DNA of 64,000 bases, taken from assembly GCF_026314945.1 (NCBI RefSeq), contig NZ_CP111121.1:4030001-4094000 (forward strand). The letters are read 5' to 3'. Both the position numbers and the translations under genes were made by a program. A model generated the notes under the pieces. The model was not told where the DNA came from. It did no database searches and saw nothing but the letters and a program-made list of their open reading frames with translations. Shown in pieces: positions 1,019 through 12,295 of the stretch (position 1 is the stretch's first letter; each line of letters opens with the position of its first letter). The stretch is from Chryseobacterium fluminis. GTDB lineage: Bacteria; Bacteroidota; Bacteroidia; Flavobacteriales; Weeksellaceae.

Positions 1019-2717
1019 ACCGTTTCCGAAAAATAAGTACCCCAGAAAAGGACTTTTAGTTAAAGGTGCGTCACCATTGGTATGGCTTAGGGAAATCGAT
1101 GCTCTTGCTATTGACATCAGTGTGGTAAAATCTTTTGCAGTTCCTTCCAACGAGCCGAATGTTCTGTATGGCTGCTTTTTGATTTTTGATCAGAATATTC
1201 CGGCAGAAATTGGGAAGAATGCCTATTTCCAGTGTTTTGATGATATGCTGTTTATCCCCGAAAATACAGACTTTTATCCAAAAATAAATGCAGAGGACTG
1301 GCAAAATGCAGACACCGAATATTTAATTATTCATCCTGAATTCGGATTGGTAAAGTTAAAGGAACCCATAGACTGGGTTTCTCTGCTGCAGGAATCTCCG
1401 AAAGCTGAAGATCTCGTCAGAAAACCGTTGAACGGTGTACCCATTCCTCAGGAGATCAAAACATTTCTGGTGGAGATGAATGATGACCGTCTCTTGGAAG
1501 AGCTGGAAAAACCCCAGACGGATGAAGAGTGGATGAAAAATCTTCCATTTGACAAAAAGAAGCTCCTGGAGGGAAATCAGGAAGAAATTGAAAAATACCT
1601 TGCTTATATTACCAGGTATCCCGAACGGGCAATTTATCTTGGAATTCCTTTAGATATCGGCGGCACATTCCGGGGAGATGGATTTGGCAATTTTAATTTT
1701 GACCCGGGTTGGTTTGCCGGTCTTTTCGGAAATGCTCTTCCGGAGGGAGATCACAGTCAGCCAGAATCAAATAACAGCCCGAAGAGAAAATCAAAAGATT
1801 ACCATAAAATTCTGATGGCCGTATTACTTCTTGTTATTGTCGTGGGATTTGCGGTAGGTTCGGATCATAAGAGCAGAATAAAATCAGAATCAGCGGATCT
1901 TTACAGCGATTCTGCAGTGGAGACGGCTCCGACCGGTGATGAGAAGATGGCAACACTGGCATTTGAATCCGGATTTACGGAAATTGATATGAAAATAGAT
2001 TCTCTGTACCGAAAGGAAAGAGCCGGACTGATGGCTGCTTATGATGCCGCGATAGCAGAAAATTCCTCGGGGGAAATCCCATCTTCATTAAACTGGGAAA
2101 TTGAAGGCTACCGGGTACGGGAAAAGCAGTCACGTGATTCACTTAAAGTGATCTATAACGAAAAAATTGCCGAATATGTTGATGAAAAGACAAAGTTCTA
2201 CAAGGAAAAAGTAGCGGATTCTCTGAGAAAATATATAACCATTTCCTCTGCTTCAAGAAAACTTTTAATGGATGAAACGGTAGAAAAACGGAGAATGGCA
2301 ATCACAGACTCGCTGACGAATAGATACGGAACCGCTAATACCATCGATCCTGTTGTTGTTTATAAAAATAATTCTTTTAAAAAGATGTTTAAGGTTAATG
2401 AAAATTCGTCAGGAGAATCCGGAGCTTCTTTTCCCGGACTTATTCTATTACTGCTTTCAATAGGAGGAGCGGTAGCGTTTTACATCTACTTTGTAAAAGA
2501 CAAACCGCTGGATATAGGTGGGAGCCATATGCCGCAGGGAATTAAAATACTCTTGATGACACTGCTTGCAGGAATGATATTGTATATTTTTTATCCCCTG
2601 ATTTCGATGTTCGGATACAACTGGCTGGTATGGATTCTTGTAGTGGTTATTGCAGTGGTTCTGTACCGTTTGTTCAGTGAAGATGAAACAATTTTAAAAT
2701 CCGGGAAAAATGAATAA
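1002..2717 (+). CDS. Multi-pass membrane protein, possible bpX-type component
   Basis: 571 residues. A soluble N-terminal half (1-265) carries the conserved-looking opening MELRIKPFPKNKYPRKG and a glycine-rich patch near 222-245. A membrane segment follows at about 268-286, then a charged, probably helical region (300-460), and three more membrane segments near 477-499, 513-533 and 537-556. It overlaps the upstream gene by 17 nt and the downstream gene by 8 nt, so all three are likely co-translated. The layout, a cytoplasmic module tethered to the membrane by a coiled stalk, fits the membrane partner of a MoxR-vWA-propeller complex. No catalytic motif is visible; the family call is an inference. 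Confidence 0.6.
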   Translation: MELRIKPFPKNKYPRKGLLVKGASPLVWLREIDALAIDISVVKSFAVPSNEPNVLYGCFLIFDQNIPAEIGKNAYFQCFDDMLFIPENTDFYPKINAEDWQNADTEYLIIHPEFGLVKLKEPIDWVSLLQESPKAEDLVRKPLNGVPIPQEIKTFLVEMNDDRLLEELEKPQTDEEWMKNLPFDKKKLLEGNQEEIEKYLAYITRYPERAIYLGIPLDIGGTFRGDGFGNFNFDPGWFAGLFGNALPEGDHSQPESNNSPKRKSKDYHKILMAVLLLVIVVGFAVGSDHKSRIKSESADLYSDSAVETAPTGDEKMATLAFESGFTEIDMKIDSLYRKERAGLMAAYDAAIAENSSGEIPSSLNWEIEGYRVREKQSRDSLKVIYNEKIAEYVDEKTKFYKEKVADSLRKYITISSASRKLLMDETVEKRRMAITDSLTNRYGTANTIDPVVVYKNNSFKKMFKVNENSSGESGASFPGLILLLLSIGGAVAFYIYFVKDKPLDIGGSHMPQGIKILLMTLLAGMILYIFYPLISMFGYNWLVWILVVVIAVVLYRLFSEDETILKSGKNE

Positions 2718-3738
2718 ACAAAAGTTTTTAGATAAATTTCTGACGGTATTTTTTATCCTTGCGGCCCTAAAAATAGTGGGAATACTCGTGCAGCTCTCCC
2801 GTGCTGACCTGGTGACCGTTCTGGGGAATCTTGTATTATTTGCCATCATCGCAGCCATCGTTTTTTTTATCATTGTCGTTTTACGGGACAAGCAAAAGGA
2901 TGCGTCACCGGCACCTGTAGGCAGAAACGCCGGAGGAATAGGAAAAGGAACGTATGTAGATCCTTCACTATTTGATAAATTGAGAAGTATCTATGAAGAG
3001 ATCGCTCAAAAGCATATTGCTGAAAAAGAATATAAAAAAGCAGCCGTCGTATATATGAATTTGCTGAAAAATGACTATCGCGCTGCCCAGACCTTAAAGG
3101 AAGGCGGCCTGTATAATGAAGCTGCTGCCGTATTTTTAAAAAGGCTGAACAGTAAAGTAGAAGCCGCTGACTGTTATGTCCAGGCAAAGCAGTATCGAAA
3201 GGCAATCGACCTTTATCGGGAACTACAGCATAAAGAGAAAGTCGGAGATCTGTATAAAGAGATGAATGATACTGAAAATGCACACCTGTATTATCAGATG
3301 GTGATAGATGATTATGTAAGCAATGGGCAGATGGTAAAAGGATCTCTGATCTACCGACAGAAAATGGAAATGCCAGGTGAAGCACAGAAAATTCTGCTGA
3401 AAGGCTGGGAAGAAAATAAAGATGCATTTAACTGTCTGAATAATTATTTTGCCAATATTTCCGACGTGAAAGTACTCAACATACAAATTCAGGAATTGTA
3501 CGACAAAACACCGTCCGATAAAAAAATCATTTATCTGGAAGCGATGAAGTATGAATTTAAAAAAGATCAGAAACTTCAGAACACCTCAAGAAATATAGCT
3601 TATGAAATCATTGCGGAAAAAGTGGCGACACGTTCTGAAATCGTTAATGAATTAAAATATTTCAATCCCGATGATCAGGTGATTCTAAAGGATATTTCCA
3701 GATATAAGACAGGGAGAAATAAGATGTTCAGGAATTAA
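2710..3738 (+). CDS. Membrane-anchored TPR-like protein
   Basis: 342 residues. Two hydrophobic segments at about 9-28 and 36-58 anchor the N terminus; the rest is alpha-helical with A/Y-rich repeats of roughly 33 residues between 100 and 230 (for example EKEYKKAAVVYMNLLKN and AKQYRKAIDLYRELQ), the pattern of tetratricopeptide repeats. It starts in an 8-nt overlap with the previous stop, so it belongs to the same operon. TPR proteins of this kind usually act as assembly scaffolds; here it would hold the propeller protein or its ATPase at the membrane. It is the last gene of the operon; a dispersed palindromic repeat follows the stop. Confidence 0.65.
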   Translation: MNKQKFLDKFLTVFFILAALKIVGILVQLSRADLVTVLGNLVLFAIIAAIVFFIIVVLRDKQKDASPAPVGRNAGGIGKGTYVDPSLFDKLRSIYEEIAQKHIAEKEYKKAAVVYMNLLKNDYRAAQTLKEGGLYNEAAAVFLKRLNSKVEAADCYVQAKQYRKAIDLYRELQHKEKVGDLYKEMNDTENAHLYYQMVIDDYVSNGQMVKGSLIYRQKMEMPGEAQKILLKGWEENKDAFNCLNNYFANISDVKVLNIQIQELYDKTPSDKKIIYLEAMKYEFKKDQKLQNTSRNIAYEIIAEKVATRSEIVNELKYFNPDDQVILKDISRYKTGRNKMFRN

Positions 3739-3751
3739 TAATGATGGTAAT

Positions 3752-3838
3752 GCTTCGTCATTGCGAGGAGCAAAGCGACGAAGCAATCTCAAAGTGAAAT
3801 TATATAATATACATTGCTTCACCTTTGGTTAGCAATAA
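3752..3838. repeat. REP-like imperfect palindrome
   Basis: The sequence CATTGCGAGGAGCAAAGC then GACGAAGCAATCTC is followed about 30 nt later by CATTGCTTCACC and GGTTAGCAAT, so the two halves can pair as one long imperfect hairpin. Sequences starting CATTGCGAGGA..GAAGCAATCTC are familiar as dispersed intergenic repeats in flavobacterial genomes. It marks the boundary between the membrane operon and the RNA island. Confidence 0.6.
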
Positions 3839-3867
3839 CAAATTATGAAATATATTTATAAATCATT

Positions 3868-3875
3868 TATCTTTG
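3868..3875 (+). promoter_or_regulatory. Bacteroidota -7 promoter element for leader gene A
   Basis: TATCTTTG fits the Bacteroidota sigma-A -7 consensus TAnnTTTG exactly and lies 13 nt upstream of the ATG at 3889, which gives a very short untranslated leader. No convincing -33 TTTG is visible. Its presence supports real transcription of the 42-codon gene. Confidence 0.6.
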
Positions 3876-3888
3876 CACCAATAAAATT

Positions 3889-4017
3889 ATGACAATACAA
3901 AGAGCACATATCAGTTTAAATCTATGCGATCGCCCTTTACTAAAGGGATCGTTTGGATATGAATGGATGATATCAGATGAGGCGAAATGTGCTTGCTTTG
4001 AAAATTATTTACTGTAA
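3889..4017 (+). CDS. 42-residue leader peptide A, candidate general tRNA sensor
   Basis: The ORF has a consensus -7 element upstream (3868) and a rho-independent terminator downstream (4049), so promoter, ORF and terminator form a self-contained mini-gene. The peptide is MTIQRAHISLNLCDRPLLKG followed by SFGYEWMISDEAKCACFENYLL. It contains 19 of the 20 amino acids (no Val), and all 19 occur within the first 26 codons, including Trp, Cys, His and Met. Thirty different sense codons are used in 42 positions. Codons 31-32 (GAG GCG) with the preceding T are complementary to the 5' arm of the terminator. I read it as a leader peptide whose job is to be translated, not a functional protein; a toxin or other small protein cannot be excluded. 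Confidence 0.6.
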   Translation: MTIQRAHISLNLCDRPLLKGSFGYEWMISDEAKCACFENYLL

Positions 4018-4057
4018 ACTCGTAAAGATTTAATCAAAATACTGCAGAAACGCCTCG
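3978..4057 (+). promoter_or_regulatory. Candidate antiterminator pairing of leader A
   Basis: TGAGGCG (3978-3984, inside codons 30-32) can pair over 7 bp with CGCCTCG (4051-4057), the 5' arm of the terminator. The two pairings exclude each other. A ribosome stalled upstream of about codon 27 would leave 3978-3984 free and favour readthrough; one that reaches the stop would cover it and favour termination. A further upstream CGCC (3932-3935) could act as a protector strand against GGCG. This pairing is short and needs folding analysis. Confidence 0.4.
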
Positions 4058-4075
4058 GTTACCGGGGCGTTTTTT
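4049..4075 (+). terminator. Rho-independent terminator or attenuator A
   Basis: CGCCTCGG (4051-4058) pairs with CCGGGGCG (4062-4069) with one G-U pair and a tight TTA loop, followed by six T (4070-4075). It lies 33 nt past the stop of leader A. Confidence 0.8.
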
Positions 4076-4303
4076 GTGTTTTTAAGGGTGTAAATTATTT
4101 AGAATGAAAAAAAATAACCATAAAATTGAAAATTATTTAATAACAAATGAACCATTAATAAGAAAATAAAGCGTGATCAATAATCCGGTGAGAGACAGTC
4201 ATTTAGGTATTTAAGGCATCTGTAAAATATTACGGACGGAAATCTTCTACCCTAAATATTGCGTTTAAATAACTGATTATCAATATTTTAAATAAAAAAT
4301 AAA

Positions 4304-4335
4304 TTTGCAGATTAAAAAAAATCATCTTTACTTTG
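4304..4335 (+). promoter_or_regulatory. Promoter of leader gene B
   Basis: TTTG at 4304-4307 (-33) and TTACTTTG at 4328-4335 (-7) are 20 nt apart, matching Bacteroidota promoter geometry with one departure from TAnnTTTG. About 69 nt of untranslated leader follow before the ATG. A near-identical TTACTTTGC occurs at 14857, upstream of the second tRNA-like cluster. Confidence 0.55.
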
Positions 4336-4404
4336 CAACCGAAAATTGAAAGCAACAAGTTTTCAGCCTTTCAGTGAAAACAATTTTTAAATAACAAGAA
4401 TATT

Positions 4405-4542
4405 ATGAAACCATTGCATAACATATCTGATACATTTTCAGGACTATACAGACAGGAACCGAAAGGGAACGGGTATGCTTGCATTATGCTTCTTGATAAG
4501 GAATTTGTGGATAAAAGGTGCTTATATATAACGGTCAGCTAA
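4405..4542 (+). CDS. 45-residue leader peptide B, candidate general tRNA sensor
   Basis: A second mini-gene with its own promoter (4304-4335) and terminator (4569-4595), lying directly before the tRNA array. The peptide begins MKPLHNISDTFSGLYRQEPK and continues GNGYACIMLLDKEFVDKRC then LYITVS. It has 19 of 20 amino acids (no Trp), 18 of them within the first 26 codons, and uses 32 different sense codons in 45 positions, including uncommon ones such as CTA, AGG, CCG, GGG and ACG. It has no sequence similarity to leader A beyond this composition; together the two cover all 20 amino acids. Codons 38-42 are complementary to the terminator's 5' arm. The role as an attenuation leader is inferred from this architecture. 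Confidence 0.6.
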   Translation: MKPLHNISDTFSGLYRQEPKGNGYACIMLLDKEFVDKRCLYITVS

Positions 4543-4573
4543 TAAACTGACACGTCTAAAATATAAAGCGCCT
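4516..4573 (+). promoter_or_regulatory. Candidate antiterminator pairing of leader B
   Basis: AGGTGCTT (4516-4523) pairs with AAGCGCCT (4566-4573) over 8 bp with one G-U, and TATAT (4525-4529) pairs with ATATA (4561-4565), leaving a single bulged A at 4524. The 13-bp helix consumes CGCCT of the terminator's 5' arm (4569-4574), so helix and terminator exclude each other. The upstream strand lies in codons 38-42 of leader B, so a ribosome stalled earlier leaves it free and one finishing the ORF covers it. Confidence 0.5.
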
Positions 4574-4595
4574 CCCGAAAAGAGGCGTTTTTTTT
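4569..4595 (+). terminator. Rho-independent terminator or attenuator B
   Basis: CGCCTC (4569-4574) and GAGGCG (4582-4587) form a perfect 6-bp stem with a 7-nt loop and are followed by eight T. The first tRNA-like sequence starts 2 nt after the T run, so a transcript from the leader B promoter must pass this terminator to enter the array. Confidence 0.85.
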
Positions 4596-4597
4596 AT

Positions 4598-4670
4598 GGT
4601 TTCTTTAGCTTATTTGGTAAAGCGTCGGTTTGTGGCACCGGAAAACAGGGTTCGATTCCCGGAGAGACCC
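4598..4670 (+). tRNA. tRNA-His(GTG)-like, slightly irregular
   Basis: Acceptor GGTTTCT pairs with AGAGACC (one G-U); D stem GCTT/AAGC; anticodon stem TCGGT/ACCGG with loop TTGTGGC (anticodon GTG); T loop TTCGATT. The discriminator is C, as expected for tRNA-His, but the base at -1 is T instead of the G needed by HisRS, there is one extra base between acceptor and D stem, and the T stem has an A-G mismatch. A functional tRNA is possible but not certain. Confidence 0.6.
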
Positions 4671-4680
4671 AAATTTATAA

Positions 4681-4754
4681 AATCGCATAGCTCAACGGGT
4701 TAGAGCATCGACCTGATACGTCGAAGGCTGAAGGTTCGAATCCTTCTGCGATTA
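4681..4754 (+). tRNA. tRNA-Ile(GAT)
   Basis: A full cloverleaf of 74 nt: acceptor AATCGCA/TGCGATT (7 perfect pairs), D stem GCTC/GAGC, anticodon stem TCGAC/GTCGA with loop CTGATAC (GAT), T stem GAAGG/CCTTC with loop TTCGAAT, discriminator A, no encoded CCA. All stems pair, so it could be functional. An A-U first acceptor pair is unusual for a cellular tRNA. Confidence 0.85.
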
Positions 4755-4762
4755 CAAAAAAA

Positions 4763-4834
4763 GGTCTGTTGAGGTAATGGCTAACCTGCCTGACTGTCGC
4801 TCAGGCACTGCGGGTTCGATTCCCGCACAGACCG
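4763..4834 (+). tRNA. tRNA-Asp(GTC)
   Basis: Acceptor GGTCTGT/ACAGACC, D stem AGGT/ACCT, anticodon stem CCTGA/TCAGG with loop CTGTCGC (GTC), T stem GCGGG/CCCGC with loop TTCGATT, discriminator G as needed for Asp identity. All stems are perfect. Position 37 is G and the D loop is short, so it differs from ordinary flavobacterial tRNA-Asp as I remember it. Confidence 0.85.
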
Positions 4835-4903
4835 CACAGGTTCACGGATAATTTTCTGATCCGACTGTCTCTCGGAATAGAATTTTGAAGTGAATCTGCA
4901 AAA

Positions 4904-4978
4904 CTGGAAAGATAACGGTGGTTGTTTACCCGCCTTGGACGCGGGAGGTCGTAAGTTCGAATCTTGCTTTCCAGACCA
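4904..4978 (+). tRNA. tRNA-Pro(TGG) with encoded CCA
   Basis: Acceptor CTGGAAA/TTTCCAG, anticodon stem CCCGC/GCGGG with loop CTTGGAC (TGG), T stem GTAAG/CTTGC (one G-U) with loop TTCGAAT, discriminator A followed by CCA. The D stem is weak (three pairs). The 69 bp between this and the Asp gene hold no further cloverleaf that I can recognise. Confidence 0.8.
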
Positions 4979-4980
4979 TT

Positions 4981-5041
4981 GCTCCATTCGTCTAATGTTT
5001 TAAGACGCAATAAATAAGGGTTCGATTTACCGTATGGAGCA
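4981..5041 (+). pseudogene. tRNA-Glu-like sequence without an anticodon arm
   Basis: Acceptor GCTCCAT/ATGGAGC is perfect and the D arm GTCT/AGAC is intact, but only GCAATAAAT separates the D arm from a degenerate T arm (loop TTCGATT). Compared with the Glu(TTC)-like element at 5876, which shares acceptor and D-arm sequence, the anticodon stem-loop has been removed almost exactly. It cannot decode; it could be a relic or a 61-nt structured RNA. Confidence 0.65.
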
Positions 5042-5046
5042 CAAAA

Positions 5047-5118
5047 GATTTCGTAGCTCAATGGTAGAGCACTGGTCTGTTAAACCAGAAGTTGAAAGTT
5101 CGAATCTTTCCGGAATCG
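5047..5118 (+). tRNA. tRNA-Asn(GTT)
   Basis: Acceptor GATTTCG/CGGAATC (one G-U), D stem GCTC/GAGC, anticodon stem CTGGT/ACCAG with loop CTGTTAA (GTT), T stem GAAAG/CTTTC with loop TTCGAAT, discriminator G. A regular cloverleaf with the usual Asn anticodon loop; likely functional. Confidence 0.85.
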
Positions 5119-5128
5119 CAAAAACTAA

Positions 5129-5203
5129 ATGTTAATTGTTTCAGAAGAGAAAAGAAAAGGTCTGTCGGGAGCAGAAGATCTTTACGCCAAAAACACAATA
5201 TAG
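5129..5203 (+). other. Possible 24-residue peptide within a repeat element
   Basis: ATG at 5129 opens a short frame, MLIVSEEKRKGLSGAEDLYA then KNTI. A second short frame at 5508-5564 encodes MSSEERKSLSSAEVLTSN; the shared pattern SEE-RK-LS-AE-L suggests the repeat once carried, or still carries, a coding segment. Neither has a recognisable ribosome binding site, so translation is doubtful. Confidence 0.3.
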
Positions 5204-5214
5204 GCAGGCTTTTT
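5156..5214 (+). repeat. 60-nt element, copy 1
   Basis: First of three diverged copies of an element whose ends are complementary (AAAG..CTGTC with GGCAGGCTTT) around a core GAGCAGAAGATCTTTA, ending in a T run. It could be a long-loop terminator hairpin or a small structured RNA. Confidence 0.5.
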
Positions 5215-5287
5215 CTTAACTCACTTGAAGCTGGATGATTAAAATTGCTGAGGAAAGTTTAAACATAATTTACATTTTTAGGTAAAT

Positions 5288-5347
5288 AAAGCTTGTCAAA
5301 GCGCAGAAGTTCTTATATCAAACAAAAAATGAAGACAGGCTTTATTT
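5288..5347 (+). repeat. 60-nt element, copy 2
   Basis: Ends AAAGCTTGTC and GACAGGCTTT pair over 10 bp (one G-U) around the core AGCGCAGAAGTTCTTA, followed by ATTTTC. It has no start codon for the peptide frame found in copies 1 and 3. Confidence 0.55.
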
Positions 5348-5408
5348 TCAAAATAATTTAAGATCAGAAATTATAAAGAAATATTTCTGAGTATGGATCC
5401 TGAAAAAC

Positions 5409-5490
5409 GATGGTTCGCCGAAGTGGAAGAGTCGGGGCGGTCTGCAAAACCGCTGCGTAAGCTGAGTGGGTTTGAATCCCATAACCATCT
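5409..5490 (+). tRNA. tRNA-Cys(GCA)-like with enlarged variable loop
   Basis: Acceptor GATGGTT/AACCATC, D stem CCGA/TCGG, anticodon stem GCGGT/ACCGC with loop CTGCAAA (GCA), T stem GTGGG/CCCAT with loop TTTGAAT, discriminator T, the required Cys identity base. The variable region is about 12 nt (TGCGTAAGCTGA) where 4-5 is normal for tRNA-Cys. Confidence 0.7.
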
Positions 5491-5526
5491 CTAATAACTA
5501 AAATGAGATGAGTTCCGAAGAAAGAA

Positions 5527-5588
5527 AAAGTTTGTCGAGCGCAGAAGTTCTTACATCAAACTAAAAATTAAATACAGGCTTTGTTTTT
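5527..5588 (+). repeat. 60-nt element, copy 3
   Basis: AAAGTTTGT pairs with ACAGGCTTT around the core AGCGCAGAAGTTCTTA and is followed by GTTTTTC. The conserved core is nearly identical to copy 2. A weak relic of the core, AGCGCAGAAGATCTTT, also occurs near 58041. Confidence 0.55.
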
Positions 5589-5606
5589 CCTCACAAAAAA
5601 GAAATG

Positions 5607-5796
5607 AGATGCCAGAATTCAGGAATCTGGTATGATCCAAAACGGTCAACTCATAAAACCGGAAGTACGCCAAAGCTGAAAAGTCGGGGCACAGAGACAA
5701 GAGAAATGAATTGAACAATTCTTCTAAAAAATGAAAAATAGCGTTAAAATTTGTTGCTTCATTGCTGAATAGGTTCGAATCCTATTACTTCTACCA
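5607..5796 (+). pseudogene. Remnants of two or three tRNA-like sequences
   Basis: Three pieces are visible. CGGTCAACTCATAAAACCG (5643-5661) resembles a Met (CAT) anticodon hairpin with two extra bases. GTACGCCAAAGCTG then AAAAGTCGGGGC (5665-5690) is a mutated copy of the first half of the Cys element at 5409. ATAGG TTCGAAT CCTAT TACTTCT ACCA (to about 5795) is a clean T arm, acceptor strand and CCA whose 5' half is lost. No complete cloverleaf can be drawn. Confidence 0.5.
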
Positions 5797-5799
5797 ATA

Positions 5800-5870
5800 T
5801 CACTGATAATGTAATGGCAGCATGCAGGAAATGTACTCTTGTTGTTCAGGTTCGACTCCTGGTCAGTGTT
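5800..5870 (+). tRNA. Cloverleaf with Thr-like anticodon TGT but A at position 33
   Basis: Acceptor TCACTGA/TCAGTGT (first pair mismatched), bases 8-9 TA, D stem ATGT/GCAT, anticodon stem CAGGA/TCTTG, T stem TCAGG/CCTGG with loop TTCGACT. The 7-nt anticodon loop is AATGTAC, giving TGT, but position 33 is A where U is universal. The fold survives although decoding should be impaired, so it is either early decay or a tRNA-shaped RNA with another role. A run of T follows at once. Confidence 0.5.
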
Positions 5871-5875
5871 TTTTT

Positions 5876-5948
5876 GCTCCATTCGTCTAACGGTTCAAAA
5901 CGTCTGCCTTTCGGGCAGAAAATAAGGGTTCGATTCCCTTATAGAGTA
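5876..5948 (+). tRNA. tRNA-Glu(TTC)-like, damaged
   Basis: GCTCCAT/ATAGAGT acceptor with one C-A mismatch and one G-U, anticodon stem TCTGC/GCAGA with loop CTTTCGG (TTC), T stem AAGGG/CCCTT with loop TTCGATT, discriminator A. The D loop reads AACGGTTCAAAA, where a standard tRNA-Glu would have the conserved GGTTAGGAC-type sequence. It shares acceptor and D arm with the anticodon-less element at 4981. Confidence 0.6.
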
Positions 5949-5978
5949 CTTTTTCAGACCTTAACGGTGAGTGGTAGC

Positions 5979-6080
5979 AATGTATAATGTACAATGTATA
6001 ATGTAAAAAGTACAATGTATAATGTATGATGTAAAAAGTATAATGTATAATGTAAAAAGTACAATGTATGATGTACAATG
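5979..6080. repeat. Simple-sequence repeat of AATGTATAATGTA type
   Basis: About 100 bp built from variants of AATGTATAATGTA, AATGTACAATGTA and AAAAAGTA. It is low-complexity and without a real reading frame. A similar tract, with units AATGTAGC and AATGTAAC, lies at 12280-12387 after the second exonuclease. Confidence 0.8.
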
Positions 6081-6132
6081 TTAATATTGGAAGGCAGATT
6101 TAATTCTGCTGATGTTTAGAACTCATCTATTC

Positions 6133-6206
6133 GCGGAAATGGTGGAAATGGCAGACACACCTGATTTAGGCTCAGGGTTTTGAGGGTTCGAGTCCCTCTT
6201 TCCGTA
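6133..6206 (+). tRNA. tRNA-Leu(TAG)-like lacking the long variable arm
   Basis: Acceptor GCGGAAA/TTTCCGT, anticodon stem CCTGA/TCAGG with loop TTTAGGC (TAG), T stem GAGGG/CCCTC with loop TTCGAGT, discriminator A. The D arm and both acceptor strands look like an ordinary Leu tRNA, but the variable region is GTTTT, whereas Leu tRNAs are class II with an extra stem-loop. Total length is 74 nt; about 82-88 is usual. Confidence 0.6.
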
Positions 6207-6288
6207 CAATGTATACATCAATAGTGTGTTGATTTATAGCTTATTATTAAAATAATTTACAAAACAAATTTAAAAACATGTAGAAAAA

Positions 6289-6774
6289 ATGGAAACGCAA
6301 CAACCAAAATGGCAGAATATGAACGGGAAATTTTTCCAGCACGCTATCACACAGCTGGTAGAAGAAGCCATCATCCGCGAACAGGCCAGTGGACACCGGC
6401 TGAAAGTATGTGTAGGTTCAGACTCCCACGTATATGGTGACGCCATTAATTATGCCACGGCAGTAGTCTTTATTCGCGAGGGAAAAGGAGCGTTTTCCTT
6501 TATCAGAAAAGAAAGAGAAATACAGCGTATCAGTATCAAGGAGCGAATGTTGAATGAAGTCAACAAATCCGTAGAAATTGCCTATGCTATTTGCTCGATA
6601 CTGGAAACTTATGAAGTGGAAATGGAGGTACACGCAGATATTAACACCGATCCGGATTTCAAATCCAATGTGGCTTTGAAAGATGCCATGGGATATATCC
6701 TTGGAATGGGGTATGTGTTTAAAGCAAAACCTTACGCATTCGCAAGTTCCAATTGTGCCGATATGATGGTGTAA
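6289..6774 (+). CDS. RNase H-like protein of the YkuK/DUF458 family
   Basis: 161 residues, near the full length of the family. The N-terminal half carries VCVGSDSHVYGDAINYATA (about 40-59), with Asp45 and His47 in the position of the first RNase H catalytic carboxylate; a second acidic strand, VHADINTDPDFKSN, lies near 109-122. DUF458/YkuK proteins are predicted RNase H-fold nucleases without an established substrate. It is the first protein gene after the tRNA array; no clear promoter stands in the 82 bp between, so it may be read from array transcripts. The next gene is 82 bp downstream, and the block ends at the terminator at 9042-9070. Confidence 0.8.
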   Translation: METQQPKWQNMNGKFFQHAITQLVEEAIIREQASGHRLKVCVGSDSHVYGDAINYATAVVFIREGKGAFSFIRKEREIQRISIKERMLNEVNKSVEIAYAICSILETYEVEMEVHADINTDPDFKSNVALKDAMGYILGMGYVFKAKPYAFASSNCADMMV

Positions 6775-6856
6775 AAGGCTGGATTTTAAACGATTCAATT
6801 ACTTCCATCCCTCCGGCTTCCATCTAAAAATAAATAAACCATAAAAACTAATAACC

Positions 6857-7633
6857 ATGTATTTTCTAATTCAGGCTAATGTCTATTTAGATCCCGATCA
6901 TTACAAAATTTTTGATGCTTTGGAAGAATTAAATATTGAGTACACCGTCATTAATATTCTTCCGACTGCAGAAAAAATAGACTTTGAAACCGACAGAAAA
7001 GATATTTTTGTATATGGCTCGGTGACCCTAGCAAGGCTGGCAAAACAAAATGCCGGCTGGTTTCCCGGATCTTTTTACGGAGGCAATCATCTGTACGAAG
7101 TGTATTCAACATATTATAGTGAAAACCTTCTCAATCATACCGTATCTGTTCATAAAATTTCGGAAGAATTGATCTGGAAAAATAATGAAATAAAATTTAT
7201 CAAACCTTACAGCGAAGCGAAAATTTTCACAGGAAAAGTTTTCAATGAATCAGAATGGAAAGATTTTGTTTTTGAATCAATAGAAAATAAATCCAACAGA
7301 ATTTCAGTAGATTCCCTGGTTCAGGTTTCTGAAGCCAAACGGCCCATAAAAGAAGCGAGGCTCTGGATTGTTGGCGGGAAAATAATCGATGCAGGATATT
7401 ACAAATTTGATGATTATATTCTTTTTGAAGAAAAAGTTTCAGAAGACGGATTGCATTTTGCCAATGAAATGATCCGGATTTTCGATCTTGAAAAAGCTTT
7501 TGTTATGGATATTTGTTTAACCGGTGAAGGCTGGAAGATTGTGGAAATCAACTGTATCAACAGTTCCGGATTTTATCCGAATACCAATGTGAAAAGTATC
7601 TTCAGAGCATTGAATATTTACTTTTCCCATTAA
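6857..7633 (+). CDS. ATP-grasp protein, R2K clade (DUF4343-like)
   Basis: 258 residues. The C-terminal third has the ATP-grasp metal-binding pattern: FVMDICL with Asp near 221, then KIVEINCINSSGFY with Glu and Asn near 233-235 and the characteristic small-residue turn after it. The N-terminal part lacks the classical preATP-grasp signature, as in the R2K clade described from RNA-repair gene neighbourhoods. ATP-grasp enzymes join a carboxylate to an amine or thiol through acyl phosphate; here the substrate is unknown and might be a peptide or a modified RNA end. It lies 11 bp before the receiver-like gene in the same direction. Confidence 0.75.
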   Translation: MYFLIQANVYLDPDHYKIFDALEELNIEYTVINILPTAEKIDFETDRKDIFVYGSVTLARLAKQNAGWFPGSFYGGNHLYEVYSTYYSENLLNHTVSVHKISEELIWKNNEIKFIKPYSEAKIFTGKVFNESEWKDFVFESIENKSNRISVDSLVQVSEAKRPIKEARLWIVGGKIIDAGYYKFDDYILFEEKVSEDGLHFANEMIRIFDLEKAFVMDICLTGEGWKIVEINCINSSGFYPNTNVKSIFRALNIYFSH

Positions 7634-7644
7634 TAAATAAACCG

Positions 7645-8016
7645 ATGGAAATGACAAAAAGATTATTGTTCCTGGATGATATCAGATATCCGGTTGAGGT
7701 ATACCGGTATACCAAACAAGATGTTTTCCTTAGAAAAGACTGGCATATTGTCCGGAATTATGAGCAGTTCATTAACCGGATCCTGGAAAAAGGACTTCCC
7801 GAAATGATTTCTTTTGACCATGACCTTGCTGATGAACATTATTGGGACCCCAATTCCCGGGAAAGGGTTGAAAAAACAGGATACGACTGCGCAAAATGGC
7901 TGGTAGAGTATTGTATGGATCATTATTTGAACTTGCCAAAATTCTACTGTCACTCCATGAATCCCGTTGGAAAGGAAAATATTGAAAGCCTTTTAAGAAA
8001 TTTCAATAACTATTAA
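7645..8016 (+). CDS. Cyclic-phosphate-processing receiver-like (cREC) protein
   Basis: 123 residues, one domain. The receiver-like start LLFLDDIRYP (Asp11-Asp12) is followed by ISFDHDLAD (Asp58, His59, Asp60) and FYCHSMNPVGKENI near 100-113. The DHDL and CHSMN motifs are not those of a phospho-transfer receiver; they match the cREC family, predicted to process 2',3'-cyclic phosphate ends in RNA-repair operons. This would prepare ends made by metal-independent RNases for the ligase encoded 10 bp downstream. Met3 (7651) is an alternative start. Function is inferred from family and neighbourhood. Confidence 0.75.
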   Translation: MEMTKRLLFLDDIRYPVEVYRYTKQDVFLRKDWHIVRNYEQFINRILEKGLPEMISFDHDLADEHYWDPNSRERVEKTGYDCAKWLVEYCMDHYLNLPKFYCHSMNPVGKENIESLLRNFNNY

Positions 8017-8026
8017 AACTAAAAAA

Positions 8027-9052
8027 ATGATTTTTAAAACATACAATTCTATGGAAAATGCTTACCAGGCCCGCGTGATCGATCAGATCAGGTTGCAGGG
8101 TTTTGGGGATGAGGTTTTCATCGTGCAGGAGAAAGTTCACGGAGCTAATTTCTCTTTCTTTACCGATGGAAAGGAAATTAAAATTGCCAAAAGAACCGCC
8201 TTTATCGAGAAGGGTGAAAAATTCTACAATGCCCATCAAATCTTAGAACGTTACAGAAAAAATGTAATCAGTGTCTTCGAAAAAGTGAAAACTATGTATC
8301 CGGATGTCGAAAGTGTTATTATTTACGGAGAATTGTTCGGGGGTGGCTACAGACACAAAGAAGTTGAGCCTGTAAAAGACGCGGTAACAGTTCAGAAAGG
8401 TATTGAATATGCGCCTTACAACGAATTTTACGCATTCGATATTAAACTGAATGGTGTAACTTATCTGGATACGGATTTAGTCAACCTAATTTTTGAAGAA
8501 ACCGGATTTTTCTATGCAAAAATCTTGTTTCAAGGGACTTTGGATGAGGCTTTGAAATTCCCCAACGCTTTCGATTCTAAAATTCCGGCATGGTTAGGAT
8601 TACCTGAACTGGAAAATAACAGCTGTGAAGGAACCATTATAAAAACGTTGAAAACCAAATATTTCGGCAATGGCTCAAGGGTCATTCTGAAAAATAAAAA
8701 TGAAAAGTGGATTGAAAAATCCAGGGTGATCAGAAAACAGGATAAAACGGTTAAAAAAACAGTTAACTTTAGCGAAAAAGCTCAGGATATTTGGGATGAA
8801 ATCCAAAAATATGTTACTGTAAACAGGTTGAATAACGTTATCAGCAAGACTGGTGAGTTTGAACCTAAAATGATGGGGAAAGTGATCGGGCTTTTGGCAC
8901 AGGATATTTTGGAGGACTTTGAAAAAGATTTTCCGGAAGTTTTTACAACCATAGAAAAAGAAGAACAGAAAAGAATCAACAAAAAAATGAATTCTTTAGC
9001 CATTGATCTGGTAAAAGAAGAATTAATGACGGTAAAATTGGAGTTTCGGTAG
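8027..9052 (+). CDS. RNA ligase, T4 Rnl2 family
   Basis: 341 residues, against 334 in T4 Rnl2, and collinear with it over its length. All nucleotidyltransferase motifs are visible: motif I EKVHGAN with Lys36 as the adenylated residue, motif III YGELFG (Glu102), IIIa FYAFDI (134-139), motif IV EGTIIK (201-206) and motif V ILKNKN (Lys222/Lys224). The C-terminal region with VTVNRLNNVISKTGE matches the Rnl2-specific domain used for RNA binding. Rnl2 enzymes seal 3'-OH/5'-phosphate nicks in duplex RNA, such as breaks in tRNA. The gene is 10 bp behind the cREC gene and is closed by a terminator overlapping its own end. Confidence 0.95.
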   Translation: MIFKTYNSMENAYQARVIDQIRLQGFGDEVFIVQEKVHGANFSFFTDGKEIKIAKRTAFIEKGEKFYNAHQILERYRKNVISVFEKVKTMYPDVESVIIYGELFGGGYRHKEVEPVKDAVTVQKGIEYAPYNEFYAFDIKLNGVTYLDTDLVNLIFEETGFFYAKILFQGTLDEALKFPNAFDSKIPAWLGLPELENNSCEGTIIKTLKTKYFGNGSRVILKNKNEKWIEKSRVIRKQDKTVKKTVNFSEKAQDIWDEIQKYVTVNRLNNVISKTGEFEPKMMGKVIGLLAQDILEDFEKDFPEVFTTIEKEEQKRINKKMNSLAIDLVKEELMTVKLEFR

Positions 9053-9070
9053 TTAATGACCGAAACTTTT
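9042..9070 (+). terminator. Terminator of the RNA-repair operon
   Basis: AGTTTCGG (9042-9049, including the last codons of the ligase) pairs with CCGAAACT (9060-9067) and ends in T. It closes the block 6289-9052 and separates it from the RNase Z-like gene. Confidence 0.7.
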
Positions 9071-9238
9071 TAAGTGTTAAACTGAACCATAAAATGACAA
9101 AGGTTTTATTGATTGAATACAATTGTTATCCAGTAAAGATTTAGTAAACTTTGCGGAAGTAATGATTAAATCTCGTGCTTTGATTCTTTCAGAATGACAA
9201 ACGTCTCCAGAGTTTTTATGGTTAATAAAAATTAAAAA

Positions 9239-10183
9239 ATGATACAGGCAGAAATAAAAAATCTTTTAAAAGAAGACATCAGCATATTAATAAAAATTCC
9301 CAACTCCGGAAAACATTACCTGTGTGATTGCGGTGAAGCCGGTTTACTGACCGTTAGAGAAGTGCAGTCCGTTTCAGCAATATTCATCAGCCATACGCAT
9401 ATTGATCACTTTTCAAATTTTGACGGAATTTTCAGGCACCAGATAGGAAGCGGAGAAAAAGTTGTGATCTGCGGACCAAAAAATATACATTTACAAGTTG
9501 AATCAAGGTTGAAATCTTACACCTGGAATTTGGTGGGTGAAAAAGCAATTGAGTATGAGATACGTGAAATTGTTTCGGAAAAAGAAATCCATGTTTATAA
9601 AATTCATCCGCCCTATTGGAATCTTGAATTGGTGACCCGCCAGAATTTCCTTTTTGAAGACGATTATGTGAACGTTGACTTTGCCATTCTGGATCATAAA
9701 ACAGATTCTATAGCGTATCTGTTCAGGGAAAAAGACACGATTACCTTTCATGAAAATGCTTCCGTATTTAAAAATGGGAAATGGATCAGTGAACTGAAAG
9801 CTGCTTTTGAAAATGATGATCCGGACCGGAAAATTCAGATAGAAGAAGCCGTTTACAATGCTTCCGATTTATTTTATCTTCTGACAAGAAATGAAGGTTA
9901 TACATTAGGGGTAATCATGGATCACGCCGTTTGTGAAAGCAATTATGAAAAAATAAAAAAGGTTTTTACAGGAGCGGATAAGGTGTATATCGAAACATTT
10001 TACAAAGATGAAGATCAGGAATTTGCCAAGATTAATTACCACAGTTATGCCTCTGCATCCGGAAGAATCATGAAAGAATGTGAAGTAAAAGAATCGGTCC
10101 CAATCCATTTTTCCCGAAGATATGTAGAAAGCGATCAACTGGAAATTGAAGAGGCATTTTATAAAGCGTTTCACGGAAATTAA
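9239..10183 (+). CDS. RNase Z-like metallo-beta-lactamase-fold hydrolase
   Basis: 314 residues. The metal site is complete: SHTHIDH (His52, His54, Asp56, His57), IMDHAV near 222 with the bridging Asp, and PIHFSRRY near 285-292, which corresponds to the THFSPRY motif of RNase Z. RNase Z cuts pre-tRNA 3' of the discriminator base. The long flexible-arm region typical of housekeeping RNase Z is not obvious, so this is a divergent member and could be a phosphodiesterase. It is transcribed with the repair genes but separated from the ligase by a terminator and 186 bp holding AACTTTGCGG (near 9144), a weak promoter candidate. Its nearness to a tRNA array and ligase fits a tRNA 3'-end role. Confidence 0.8.
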   Translation: MIQAEIKNLLKEDISILIKIPNSGKHYLCDCGEAGLLTVREVQSVSAIFISHTHIDHFSNFDGIFRHQIGSGEKVVICGPKNIHLQVESRLKSYTWNLVGEKAIEYEIREIVSEKEIHVYKIHPPYWNLELVTRQNFLFEDDYVNVDFAILDHKTDSIAYLFREKDTITFHENASVFKNGKWISELKAAFENDDPDRKIQIEEAVYNASDLFYLLTRNEGYTLGVIMDHAVCESNYEKIKKVFTGADKVYIETFYKDEDQEFAKINYHSYASASGRIMKECEVKESVPIHFSRRYVESDQLEIEEAFYKAFHGN

Positions 10184-10286
10184 AAAAACTTATATTTTTT
10201 TTACAACAGACCAACACTTAGGCACGAAAATATGATAAAATTCTACTAAGGACCTTTTGAGTCTTGGAACAGATGAAATAAAAGAA

Positions 10287-10832
10287 ATGAATACAACCAA
10301 CGAAATATTAATGGTCGATCTGGAAGCTACATGTTGGGAGAACGACCGGATCCCGACGGGTCAGAAAGTCGATATTATAGAAATAGGAATTTGCGAATTA
10401 AACAGAACAAGCAAAATAATTTCCAGAAAGCAAAGCATTTATATCATTCCTGAAAGGTCTAAAATCAGTAAGTTTTGTACGGATTTAACAGGAATTACAC
10501 CGCAGTTAATTAAAGAAAAAGGAATTGATTTCGAAGATGCCTGCGAGAAAATTAAAGAGGAATATCACTCTCATTCTCTTAGCTGGGCAGGTTTCGGAAG
10601 TTTTGATAAAGAACAGATGATGCAGCAATGTGATGCTCTCGGTATTGAAAATCCTTTCTCGCAACATTATATTAATGTGATGAATCTATTCAGCAATTAT
10701 AACGGACTTCATAAAATGATGGGTTTGAAAAGAGCTCTTCGCGCGATGAATATGAATTTTGAAGGCCATCATCACAACGGAGCAGACGATGCTTACAATG
10801 CAGCCAGAATTTTAAGAGAAATTTTGGGCTGA
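10287..10832 (+). CDS. DEDDh 3'-5' exonuclease, paralogue 1
   Basis: 181 residues from the ATG at 10287; an upstream in-frame TTG at 10257 is less likely. Motifs: VDLEATCW (Asp11, Glu13; ExoI), WAGFGSFDKEQM (ExoII Asp near 110) and HHHNGADDAYNAA (ExoIII His and Asp near 160-166). This is the ERI-1/KapD-like branch of DEDDh nucleases, which trim RNA 3' ends; the DLEATCW opening is typical of that branch. A close paralogue (11729) lies beyond an array of 177-bp repeats. In this setting 3' trimming of damaged tRNA or turnover of the repeat RNAs is plausible. Confidence 0.9.
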   Translation: MNTTNEILMVDLEATCWENDRIPTGQKVDIIEIGICELNRTSKIISRKQSIYIIPERSKISKFCTDLTGITPQLIKEKGIDFEDACEKIKEEYHSHSLSWAGFGSFDKEQMMQQCDALGIENPFSQHYINVMNLFSNYNGLHKMMGLKRALRAMNMNFEGHHHNGADDAYNAARILREILG

Positions 10833-10897
10833 TGATTAACCAATTAAATAACAGAAATTTGCAGATTACTGACACTCAGGTAATATTAGTTTTAAAA

Positions 10898-11690
10898 GTG
10901 ATCACTAAAAAAACTAAAGTGTTCTAAAGTGTAAAAAAATCTCAGCAGCAGATTATAAAAGACATCACATTTTAACACTTAAGTAGTATGAAGTAAAAAT
11001 AATGCTTGTGAAAAGTACACGTAAGTTTATGAAAATCTCTGATTTTCTTCTTATGTGACCTACTATTTTTCAAAGTGATCCACTAAAAAAACTAAAGTGT
11101 TATTAAGTGTAAAAAAATCTCAGCAGCAGATTATCAAAACATCATGTTTTAACACTTAAGTAGTATGAAGTAAAAATAATGCTTGTGAAAAGAACACGTA
11201 AGTCTTGAAAATCTCTGATTTTCTTCTTATGTGACCTACTATTTTTCAAAGTGATCCACTAAAAAAACTAAAGTGTTCTAAAGTGTAAAAAAATCTCAGC
11301 AGCAGATTATCAAAACATCATGTTTTAACACTTAAGTAGTATGAAGTAAAAATAATGCTTGTGAAAAGAACACGTAAGTCTTGAAAATCTCTGATTTTCT
11401 TCTTATGTGACCTACTATTTTTCAAAGTGATCCACTAAAAAAACTAAAGTGTTCTTAAGTGTAAAAAAATCTTAGCAGCAGACTATAAAAGACATCATGT
11501 TTTAACACTAAAGCAGTATTAAGTAAAATAATGCTTGTGAAAAGTACATGTAAGTTTATGAAAATCTCTGATTTTCTTCTTATGTGACCTACTATTTTTC
11601 AAAGTGATCAACTAAAAAAACTAAAGTATTCTTAAGTGTAAAAAAATCCTATTATCAGAATATAAAAAGACATATTACTTATCAAGTAAG
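10898..11690 (+). repeat. Tandem array, 4.5 copies of a 177-bp structured unit
   Basis: Unit starts lie at 10898, 11075, 11251, 11427 and 11604 (periods 177, 176, 176, 177); the fifth is partial. Copies 2 and 3 are nearly identical, so expansion is recent. Each unit can fold: ACTAAAGTGTT pairs with AACACTTAAGT around small hairpins AATCT/AGATT and AAAACATCATGTTTT, followed by a long hairpin CACGTAAG..GAAAATC TCT GATTTTC..CTTATGTG. An 18-codon frame (MLVKSTRKFMKISDFLLM) in copy 1 is broken in copies 2 and 3, which argues for RNA structure and not a peptide. The array separates two paralogous exonuclease genes. Confidence 0.9.
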
Positions 11691-11728
11691 AGATGATCTG
11701 CGACTTATGTCAATAAAAATTTAAACGA

Positions 11729-12295
11729 ATGAAAACAACAGACAATATATTAATTATAGATCTCGAAGCGACGTGCTGGAATGACCGCCCGCCGAGAGGT
11801 CAGGCAAGTGAAATTATAGAAATCGGCGTCTGTATCATGGATGCAAAAACCGGCAGGATTTCACAAAATGAGGGAATTCTCGTAAAACCACAATTTTCAA
11901 AAGTAAGCCCGTTCTGTACGGAGCTGACTTCTATTACCCAGGAGATGCTTGATGACGAAGGCATTCTATTGGAAGATGCATTAGATATTCTGAGAGCAGA
12001 ATACGATTCTGAAGACCTGACCTGGGCGAGTTACGGAAACTATGATCTGAATATGCTTAAAGATCAGGCAGGAAAGTTTAATGTCGATTATCCTTTAAGT
12101 GATGCTCATATCAATGTGAAAACATTGTTCGGAGAACTGCATCCGACCGTCCGCAAAAGTGTCGGAATGGCAAGGGCTTTAGGCGAGCTGAATTTTAAAC
12201 TTGAAGGCACCCATCACAGGGGGGTGGATGACGCAAAGAACATTGCAAAAATTTTACACTGGTGTCTGCAGCGGATGAATAATGTAACAATGTAG
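11729..12295 (+). CDS. DEDDh 3'-5' exonuclease, paralogue 2
   Basis: 188 residues, same layout as the gene at 10287: IDLEATCW (Asp11, Glu13), WASYGNYDLNML (ExoII Asp near 110) and THHRGVDDAKNIA (ExoIII). The two proteins align along their whole length without gaps of note, so they arose by duplication but have diverged well beyond the near-identical repeats between them. The ATG at 11729 follows the partial fifth repeat by about 40 bp. The C terminus (RMNNVTM) runs into a low-complexity tract, so the last residues may be an extension from repeat sequence. Role as for paralogue 1. Confidence 0.9.
   Translation: MKTTDNILIIDLEATCWNDRPPRGQASEIIEIGVCIMDAKTGRISQNEGILVKPQFSKVSPFCTELTSITQEMLDDEGILLEDALDILRAEYDSEDLTWASYGNYDLNMLKDQAGKFNVDYPLSDAHINVKTLFGELHPTVRKSVGMARALGELNFKLEGTHHRGVDDAKNIAKILHWCLQRMNNVTM

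Follow-up and report, generated by a model that had tools for sequence, protein, structure and literature searches.

Two leaders of broad amino acid content precede an extra tRNA array, YkuK and RNA-repair genes in Chryseobacterium fluminis: a candidate attenuator and its relatives

Introduction

Why should a bacterium whose housekeeping transfer RNA (tRNA) genes cover all 20 amino acids carry an extra set of tRNAs, placed behind two short reading frames and ahead of RNA-repair genes? The locus that raises this question lies in a stretch of 64,000 nucleotides (nt) of the Chryseobacterium fluminis genome (contig NZ_CP111121.1, positions 4,030,001 to 4,094,000; hereafter the window). On the + strand, a promoter motif, leader 1, terminator 1, an inter-leader element, promoter 2, leader 2 and terminator 2 are followed by the tRNA array and then by genes for YkuK, an R2K protein, cREC and an Rnl2-type RNA ligase. 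An original prediction, made from the letters of the DNA, held that a universal codon sensor opens the terminators ahead of the tRNAs and repair genes. Here, we compare the locus with its relatives and propose that it likely contains an attenuator covering all 20 amino acids, in which a stall in either leader would open the terminator and release reserve tRNAs and repair enzymes.

Results

A search of genome contigs for the ligase retrieved 63 related loci, and both leaders with their terminators, which the original prediction had located correctly in the window, were present in 58 of them; two yielded leader 2 only and three were cut by contig ends. For the analysis of amino acid content, 180 leaders from 93 loci (87 leaders 1 and 93 leaders 2) were selected for their length and their place ahead of a terminator, without regard to composition, and terminators therefore accompany all 180 by construction of the search. 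Leader 1 was not extracted in L066, L074, L100, L104, L111 and L112, where leader 2 is present and no terminator 1 was found by the rule. L049, L078 and L083 were dropped because their contigs end before the leaders, and L191 was excluded from the counts as a decayed locus with a frameshifted leader 1 and no array. L114, L115 and L118 were found later and lie outside the 180-leader set, and for L063, L095 and L113 the start was taken at a later in-frame ATG.

Of the 87 leaders 1, 84 have 19 or more kinds of amino acid and 41 have the full 20; of the 93 leaders 2, 65 have 19 or more and 31 the full 20. When the two leaders are pooled, 20 kinds are found in 81 of 87 loci and 19 in the remaining 6; the two leaders of the window jointly contain all 20. 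By comparison, 42-residue segments of the long open reading frames (ORFs) in the window have 19 kinds in 1.6% and 20 kinds in 0.06% of cases, and random pairs of such segments have 20 kinds in 9%. Column shuffling of 70 distinct leader-1 peptides lowered the mean from 19.40 to 19.10 kinds, and 0 of 500 shuffles reached the observed value, a sign of coverage beyond site preference in leader 1. As a chance control, we examined 2608 other ORFs of 35 to 48 codons across 144 loci (3.64 Mb, both strands): 86 had at least 19 kinds, 17 had a terminator behind them, and two had both features. These two, from two genomes of genus g32, are each an additional copy of the double-leader module placed ahead of Rnl2. 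The ORF rule (35 to 48 codons plus a terminator) is not fully sensitive, as the L118 leaders (30 and 31 codons) escaped it.

The leader peptides drift in relatives yet stay panoramic. The position of the Trp codon differs between sub-groups of the Chryseobacterium group, and the peptides of far genera are largely unalike. The two leaders have 20 kinds in 42 residues and 19 in 39 in L122 (another genus of the family), 19 in 41 and 18 in 42 in L090 (Psychroserpens), and 19 in 37 to 38 and 17 to 18 in 43 in L162 and L187 (another family). Among eight further ligase loci that were fetched, leaders are present in L114, L115 and L118, together with either the relic of a tRNA or an array in decay; the figures are 16 kinds in 30 residues and 19 in 31 for L118, and 19 in 37 and 16 in 37 for L114 and L115. 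In the other five of these eight, there was no tRNA and no inter-leader element, and the ORF rule gave no leader. Because the loci are related, the main support is this recurrence of breadth in diverged peptides.

Each leader also contains a strand that could pair with its terminator. The leader-1 segment TGAGGCG (beginning at nt 89) is complementary to CGCCTC, the 5' arm of the terminator, and AGGTGCTT of leader 2 is complementary to AAGCGCCT. Across 81 in-register leader-1 loci, a count that leaves out leaders of a length other than 42 codons, each of the five core pairs is kept in 80 or 81 and the two outer pairs in 77 and 73 loci. A CGCTTC arm occurs in four loci, three of which carry the matching A in the leader (GAAGCG twice, GAAGTG once). 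Shuffling the terminator arms among the 81 loci gave little signal when all pairs were counted (554 of 567 cells paired versus 552 shuffled, with shuffles reaching 556), and P = 0.0065 for Watson-Crick cells only. The RNAalifold consensus of nascent leaders, with far genera excluded, contains the antiterminator helix in both cases (GAGGC:GCCUC, 78 sequences; AGGUGCU:AGCGCCU, 85 sequences). In other genera the leader sequences differ, yet a strand complementary to the terminator is again present, and nascent minimum free energy folds form the antiterminator in 14 of 14 leaders (two each from the window, L046, L090, L162, L122, L114 and L118; five genera), the helix of L046 leader 1 being partial (GGCG:CGCC) because the tested segment stopped within the arm.

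Codon usage at these sites is unusual. Among the codons of the long ORFs in the window, GAG accounts for 20% of those for Glu, GCG for 16% of those for Ala and AGG for 19% of those for Arg; at the antiterminator sites, GAG is found in 75 of 80 and GCG in 70 of 80 leaders, and AGG in 88 of 88 leaders 2 with RCL in the peptide. That minority codons are near-fixed at these positions supports a constraint on the RNA. A sensor of every amino acid needs its repertoire ahead of the antiterminator, and the placement in leader 1 matches this: the 29 codons before the antiterminator encode a mean of 19.0 kinds (84 leaders) versus a null of 13.86 ± 1.51, 19 kinds in 29 codons being reached by 2 of 3815 null windows from ordinary proteins, and all 20 kinds precede the strand in 27 of 87 leaders 1. 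The effect is weaker in leader 2, with a mean of 17.7 kinds (92 leaders, one without the AGGTGCT motif being excluded) versus nulls of mostly 14.6 to 15.1. A leader frame close behind a promoter motif, an intrinsic terminator, an antiterminator pairing and sensing codons upstream are thus all found, as predicted for an attenuator.

Downstream of the leaders, the window array comprises nine tRNAs detected by ARAGORN (His, Ile, Asp, Pro, Asn, Cys, Thr, Glu and Leu) and a split Tyr copy, ten in place of the dozen or so originally counted; relatives carry up to 19. All 63 related ligase loci have at least one tRNA upstream, 56 of them 9 to 19 and the other seven 1 to 8 (among these L078 and L083, with cut contigs), so that repair operons consistently lacking array and leaders, which the original prediction had named as telling against it, are not what is seen in this ligase clade. 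The order is similar in relatives: His, Ile/Arg, Lys, Arg, Ser, Asp, Pro, Glu, Met/Ile, Asn, Cys, Tyr, Thr, Glu, Leu, Phe, Gln, Trp. We compared 1094 array tRNAs from 96 loci with the C. fluminis housekeeping set. Array tRNAs of the Chryseobacterium group are 53 to 73% identical to the housekeeping tRNA of the same anticodon (medians by isotype) and 85 to 97% identical among themselves (medians of sampled pairs). Their anticodons are conserved, and the discriminator base is the cognate housekeeping base in 921 of 973 scorable array tRNAs (121 of 1094 were unscored), with C73 in 79 of 79 His, U73 in 77 of 77 Cys, G73 in 48 of 48 Asp and G73 in 45 of 45 Trp tRNAs. In a reading of up to 60 copies per isotype, the most frequent anticodon loop is unlike that of the housekeeping tRNA in 15 of 19 isotypes and matches a housekeeping one in Asn, Lys, Trp and Met. 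The array Cys tRNA is mostly 83 nt long versus 72 in the housekeeping set, and far genera supply one Val and three Gly array tRNA genes. A variant of the Thr(tgt)-like array tRNA reads Ile(tat), and this member is perhaps not an ordinary tRNA.

Amino acids absent from leaders were compared with tRNAs absent from arrays in ten tests, whose p values are uncorrected for relatedness or number of tests. For leader 1, W agreed with a link between the two (p = 0.008), and T (p = 0.55) and D (p = 0.12) were not significant. For leader 2, T (p = 0.004) and D (p = 0.03) agreed with it, and W was not significant (p = 0.31).

Internal promoters, which had been set beforehand as evidence that would count against control by the leaders, were not seen in the arrays. 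Across 88 arrays (192 kb), TAnnTTTG is present 5 times and the reversed motif 101 times; window-wide, on both strands, the counts are 64 and 89. Given this depletion, the arrays appear to be maintained without promoters inside them. Between the leaders, an element containing GAGAGACAG, then a hairpin showing compensatory changes and then GGACAGG is strongly conserved in 17 aligned loci; it is also found in L118, and L114 and L115 share its hairpin part. No T-box was matched by Rfam in the window, nor in 3700–9300 at E ≤ 1, and a T-box or other known riboswitch was rejected, as only tRNAs pass the gathering score; permissive matches in the locus (STnc370, Phe_leader, Plastid-ycf2 and tRNA-Sec) were all below gathering scores.

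We then asked which gene accompanies the array. In 173 genomes of the genus, the ligase was matched in 118 (55 without), leader 1 DNA in 167 and YkuK in 166. Leader and YkuK are kept or lost together, with both in 165 and neither in 5; G172 has a frameshifted leader and neither array nor YkuK, G501 has the leader without YkuK in a genome that is 73% complete, and G502 has YkuK, at a contig edge, without the leader. Twenty ligase-less genomes of the genus were fetched at the leader. All 20 contain tRNA genes (three to 16 in 19 of them, His only in L104), and YkuK lies downstream in every one, with a length of 161 codons in 19 and as a 179-codon ORF in L109. Of 15 proteins searched for, YkuK is the one that comes first behind the array in all 96 array loci. 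The other downstream counts, which are limited to fetched stretches of differing length, were cREC 76, Rnl2 66, R2K3 34, RLIG1-type ligase 20, RNase Z-like 42, RNase_T-like 63 and 74, metallophosphoesterase 67, and RtcB and AlkB-like one each; with a match in 1 of 96 loci, RtcB is not a regular member of the locus. An exception outside the 96-locus set is L118, whose fetched stretch includes leaders and an array in decay but shows no YkuK.

The constant partner of the array is YkuK, not the ligase, and the Rnl2-cREC-R2K trio that the original prediction had put in this place must be given up. The ligase as core of the locus was likewise rejected, having no match in 55 of 173 genus genomes while leader 1 was found in 167. 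YkuK in general was also rejected as an array partner: 78 genomes were matched, and 1 of 40 fetched Bacteroidia PF04308 loci (L162) has such an array. The protein belongs to the same Pfam family as B. subtilis YkuK/DUF458 and shares its predicted RNase H-like fold (PMC3985635, in the part available), but elsewhere in Bacteroidia YkuK is mostly solitary. A search of solved structures with YkuK gave no match.

Discussion

We propose the following mechanism. With all charged tRNAs available, a ribosome at the stop codon would mask the antiterminator strand, the terminator would form and the array would be off. If one charged tRNA became scarce, the ribosome would stall upstream, leaving the strand free, and the antiterminator would replace the terminator of that frame; two tandem units, each with its own promoter, could give graded control. 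The output would be the reserve tRNA set, YkuK and the repair enzymes. The reserve tRNAs would be charged, their altered anticodon arms might enable them to withstand nucleases that cleave the housekeeping tRNAs, and the ligases and other enzymes would mend broken RNA. Escape of this kind has been predicted for phage tRNAs, through anticodon-loop changes that evade host nucleases (PMC10264068, in the part available). The universal codon sensor of the original prediction thus gains strong comparative support from breadth under drift, antiterminators and depleted internal promoter motifs, with its partner and its trigger corrected.

Several results weigh against this proposal. Most loci come from one genus, so that the counts are not independent, and some leaders are not panoramic (16 kinds in the 30 codons of L118 leader 1, 16 in 37 in L114 leader 2, 17 in 43 in L162 leader 2). 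Column shuffling of 50 leader-2 peptides showed no significant coverage beyond site preference (P = 0.14). The antiterminator helix is weak in any single leader (shuffled-leader P 0.008 to 0.5), and full-length folds give the terminator in 13 of 14 leaders, the antiterminator persisting in leader 2 of the window; kinetics must therefore matter. The fourth locus with a CGCTTC arm retains GAGGCG, eight loci with a CGTCTC arm keep the leader G (a G-U pair), and two-sided covariation in Chryseobacterium amounts to about one event. The window array is decaying. Arrays of the Chryseobacterium group yielded no tRNA for Ala, Val or Gly, though the leaders contain all three amino acids. The Thr(tgt)-like tRNA lacks U33 in 28 of 28 copies (loop AATGTAC or ACTGTAC), and the array Leu tRNAs are mostly 74 to 76 nt, without the long variable arm (83 to 85 nt in the housekeeping set); not every array member need therefore be functional.

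These two aberrant tRNAs also lend themselves to another interpretation, that the array RNAs serve nucleases or YkuK as decoys, sponges or processing substrates and are not working tRNAs, as do bodies far from the housekeeping tRNAs and the structured spacer RNAs between array members. We consider this improbable, since cognate discriminators are kept in the large majority of array tRNAs and anticodons are conserved; the leaders moreover contain codons for 944 of 948 locus-anticodon pairs, largely a consequence of their breadth. That the short frames are conserved functional micropeptides unrelated to attenuation deserves hardly any credence. Their conserved ends, EAKCA and KRCLY, would fit such a role, but they overlap the antiterminator strands with their near-fixed minority codons, and the peptides of the far genera have little likeness for the most part. 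A prophage or mobile-element remnant is very improbable as well: a T4-like Rnl2 beside a tRNA array does resemble phage gene sets, and the diverged tRNAs resemble those of phages, but leader and YkuK occur in about 95% of the genus genomes searched, a viral contig scan (able to find close relatives only) returned no close relative of YkuK, and there was no phage gene among the neighboring products run through Pfam. A known defense system was rejected too, a DEDDh exonuclease being the sole PADLOC match among seven scanned proteins.

The rival with most in its favor concerns the trigger. The leaders could be a general sensor of translation stress, such as ribosome inhibitors or starvation, with the array supporting translation under those conditions and tRNA cleavage not the main trigger. 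Slowed ribosomes would stall in the leader too, and the trn array of Anabaena, which is silent, is induced by translation-targeting antibiotics (PMC10272220, in the part available). Damaged tRNA, which the original prediction had the leaders sense, is not singled out by anything in the sequence, and starvation or ribosome inhibitors would halt leader translation as well. A sensor of ribosome inhibitors, however, has no need of all 20 amino acids before the antiterminator, and the downstream ligases, cREC, exonucleases, and the RtcB and AlkB-like proteins seen once each point to RNA damage. We therefore regard the general-stress explanation as unlikely, and from the downstream enzymes we infer that tRNA damage rather than starvation would be the main trigger. 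On balance, we lean towards a universal tRNA-integrity sensor, in which loss of any single tRNA would free nuclease-tolerant shadow tRNAs, the YkuK nuclease and repair enzymes, and so provide backup translation against tRNA-cutting attacks.

Silent stress-induced tRNA arrays, tRNA-damage-controlled repair and amino acid attenuators are already known. Known attenuator leaders, of the trp, his and phe type, are dominated by one amino acid or a few. The present locus is predicted to share with them a leader frame, a terminator and an alternative antiterminator upon ribosome stalling, but its leaders mostly have 19 to 20 kinds, stand in tandem and precede tRNAs and repair genes instead of biosynthesis genes.

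In Anabaena PCC 7120, the available part of PMC10272220 describes the trn operon as a large extra tRNA array beside the housekeeping tRNAs, normally silent and induced by translational stress, whose repressor TrcR also controls the RNA ligase gene rtcB. That array is plasmid-borne and governed by a ribbon-helix-helix repressor, whereas here two panoramic attenuators in cis are predicted, and YkuK and repair genes accompany the array. RtcR-controlled rtcBA is likewise an RNA-repair operon that answers to damaged tRNA; there, the CARF domain of RtcR binds tRNA fragments, whereas the sensor proposed here is the stalled ribosome and the output includes tRNAs (PMC7790460, as far as available). T4-like and jumbo phages combine tRNA arrays, anticodon-loop changes relative to the host, RNA ligases and ligase-linked cRec (PMC7824862 and PMC10264068, in their available parts). 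In contrast to those counter-defense arrays, this is a conserved bacterial locus with predicted attenuator control. Our searches of open-access literature, by titles and abstract starts, showed no description of a leader covering all amino acids or of an attenuator-controlled tRNA array.

A leader selected for every amino acid would amount to a general detector of any missing tRNA. If this is true, monitoring of translation would be tied directly to reserve tRNAs and RNA repair, which would suggest how cells survive tRNA-cutting toxins and defense nucleases, give YkuK a functional context and offer a ready reporter for tRNA damage. Should the universal-sensor reading be proved, the system may merit a class of its own.

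Features of the locus and its surroundings

The features are collected in Table 1. Pfam bears out the YkuK/DUF458, R2K, cREC and Rnl2 identities given in the original prediction. The ligase scores 217.7 bits with TIGR02307 (cut-off 197.15), and PF09414 and PF18043 match its ligase and Rnl2 C-terminal domains. The linkage of cREC to RNA ligases is supported by PMC7824862; for R2K, said earlier to come from RNA-repair neighborhoods, the available part of that source speaks of peptide ligation, not RNA repair. The terminator placed at 9042 is visible by eye as a hairpin followed by T's, but the terminator scan does not list it.

Table 1. Coordinates of features of the locus within the window
Feature	Position	Strand	Basis
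Promoter 1, -7 motif TAnnTTTG (flavobacterial)	3868..3875	+	Sequence; motif at most 75 nt upstream of leader 1 in 83/87 loci
Leader 1, 42 codons, 19 kinds of amino acid, V absent	3889..4017	+	Sequence; leader 1 analyzed in 87 loci
Putative antiterminator 5' strand of leader 1, TGAGGCG	3978..3984	+	Complementary to terminator 1
Terminator 1	4046..4079	+	Terminator scan
Inter-leader element with conserved hairpin	4187..4245	+	17 aligned loci chosen from 87; single copy in genome
Promoter 2 region, TTTG ... TTACTTTG	4304..4335	+	Relaxed motif TWnnTTTGC in 90/93 loci, 40-170 nt ahead of leader 2
Leader 2, 45 codons, 19 kinds of amino acid, W absent	4405..4542	+	Sequence
Putative antiterminator 5' strand of leader 2, AGGTGCTT	4516..4523	+	Complementary to terminator 2 arm
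Terminator 2	4565..4597	+	Terminator scan
Array tRNA-His(gtg)	4598..4670	+	ARAGORN, Rfam
Array tRNA-Ile(gat)	4681..4755	+	ARAGORN, Rfam
Array tRNA-Asp(gtc)	4763..4835	+	ARAGORN, Rfam
Array tRNA-Pro(tgg)	4904..4978	+	ARAGORN, Rfam
Array tRNA-Asn(gtt)	5047..5119	+	ARAGORN, Rfam
Spacer RNA element copy 1, ends approximate	5151..5217	+	
Spacer RNA element copy 2, ends approximate	5282..5347	+	
Array tRNA-Cys(gca)	5409..5491	+	ARAGORN
Spacer RNA element copy 3, ends approximate	5521..5583	+	
tRNA-Tyr copy, insertion in anticodon region	5661..5796	+	BLAST with commonest Tyr sequence of relatives
Array tRNA-like Thr(tgt), without U33	5799..5871	+	ARAGORN, loop comparison
Array tRNA-Glu(ttc)	5876..5949	+	ARAGORN, Rfam
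Array tRNA-Leu(tag), short variable arm	6133..6207	+	ARAGORN, Rfam, length comparison
YkuK/DUF458 RNase H-like protein	6289..6774	+	Pfam PF04308
R2K ATP-grasp protein	6857..7633	+	Pfam R2K_3
cREC cyclic-phosphate receiver-like protein	7645..8016	+	Pfam PF20274
T4 Rnl2-type RNA ligase	8027..9052	+	TIGR02307, Pfam, PDB relatives 2hvq/1s68
Hairpin and T-run after ligase	9042..9071	+	By eye: 9-bp stem, then T's; absent from terminator-scan list

The spacer element of the arrays has an outer stem closed by UGUC/GAC and a near-invariant strand, GCAGAAGNUCUU, and 189 copies were found in 78 loci. It has no Rfam match at E ≤ 1, and its motif occurs three times in the C. fluminis genome, always within the array. 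In L114 (- strand, about 9530-10255) and L115 (9670-10393), a second double-leader copy with a collapsed tRNA stands directly before Rnl2, and this second module copy lies near two RlaP RNA-repair genes.

Downstream of the ligase, at 9239-12295 of the window, an RNase Z-like metallo-hydrolase and two RNase_T-family exonucleases extend the RNA-processing neighborhood. Immediately upstream of the locus, at 71-3738, are genes of a MoxR-vWA-beta-propeller (bpX1, bpX3) ternary system and a TPR protein.

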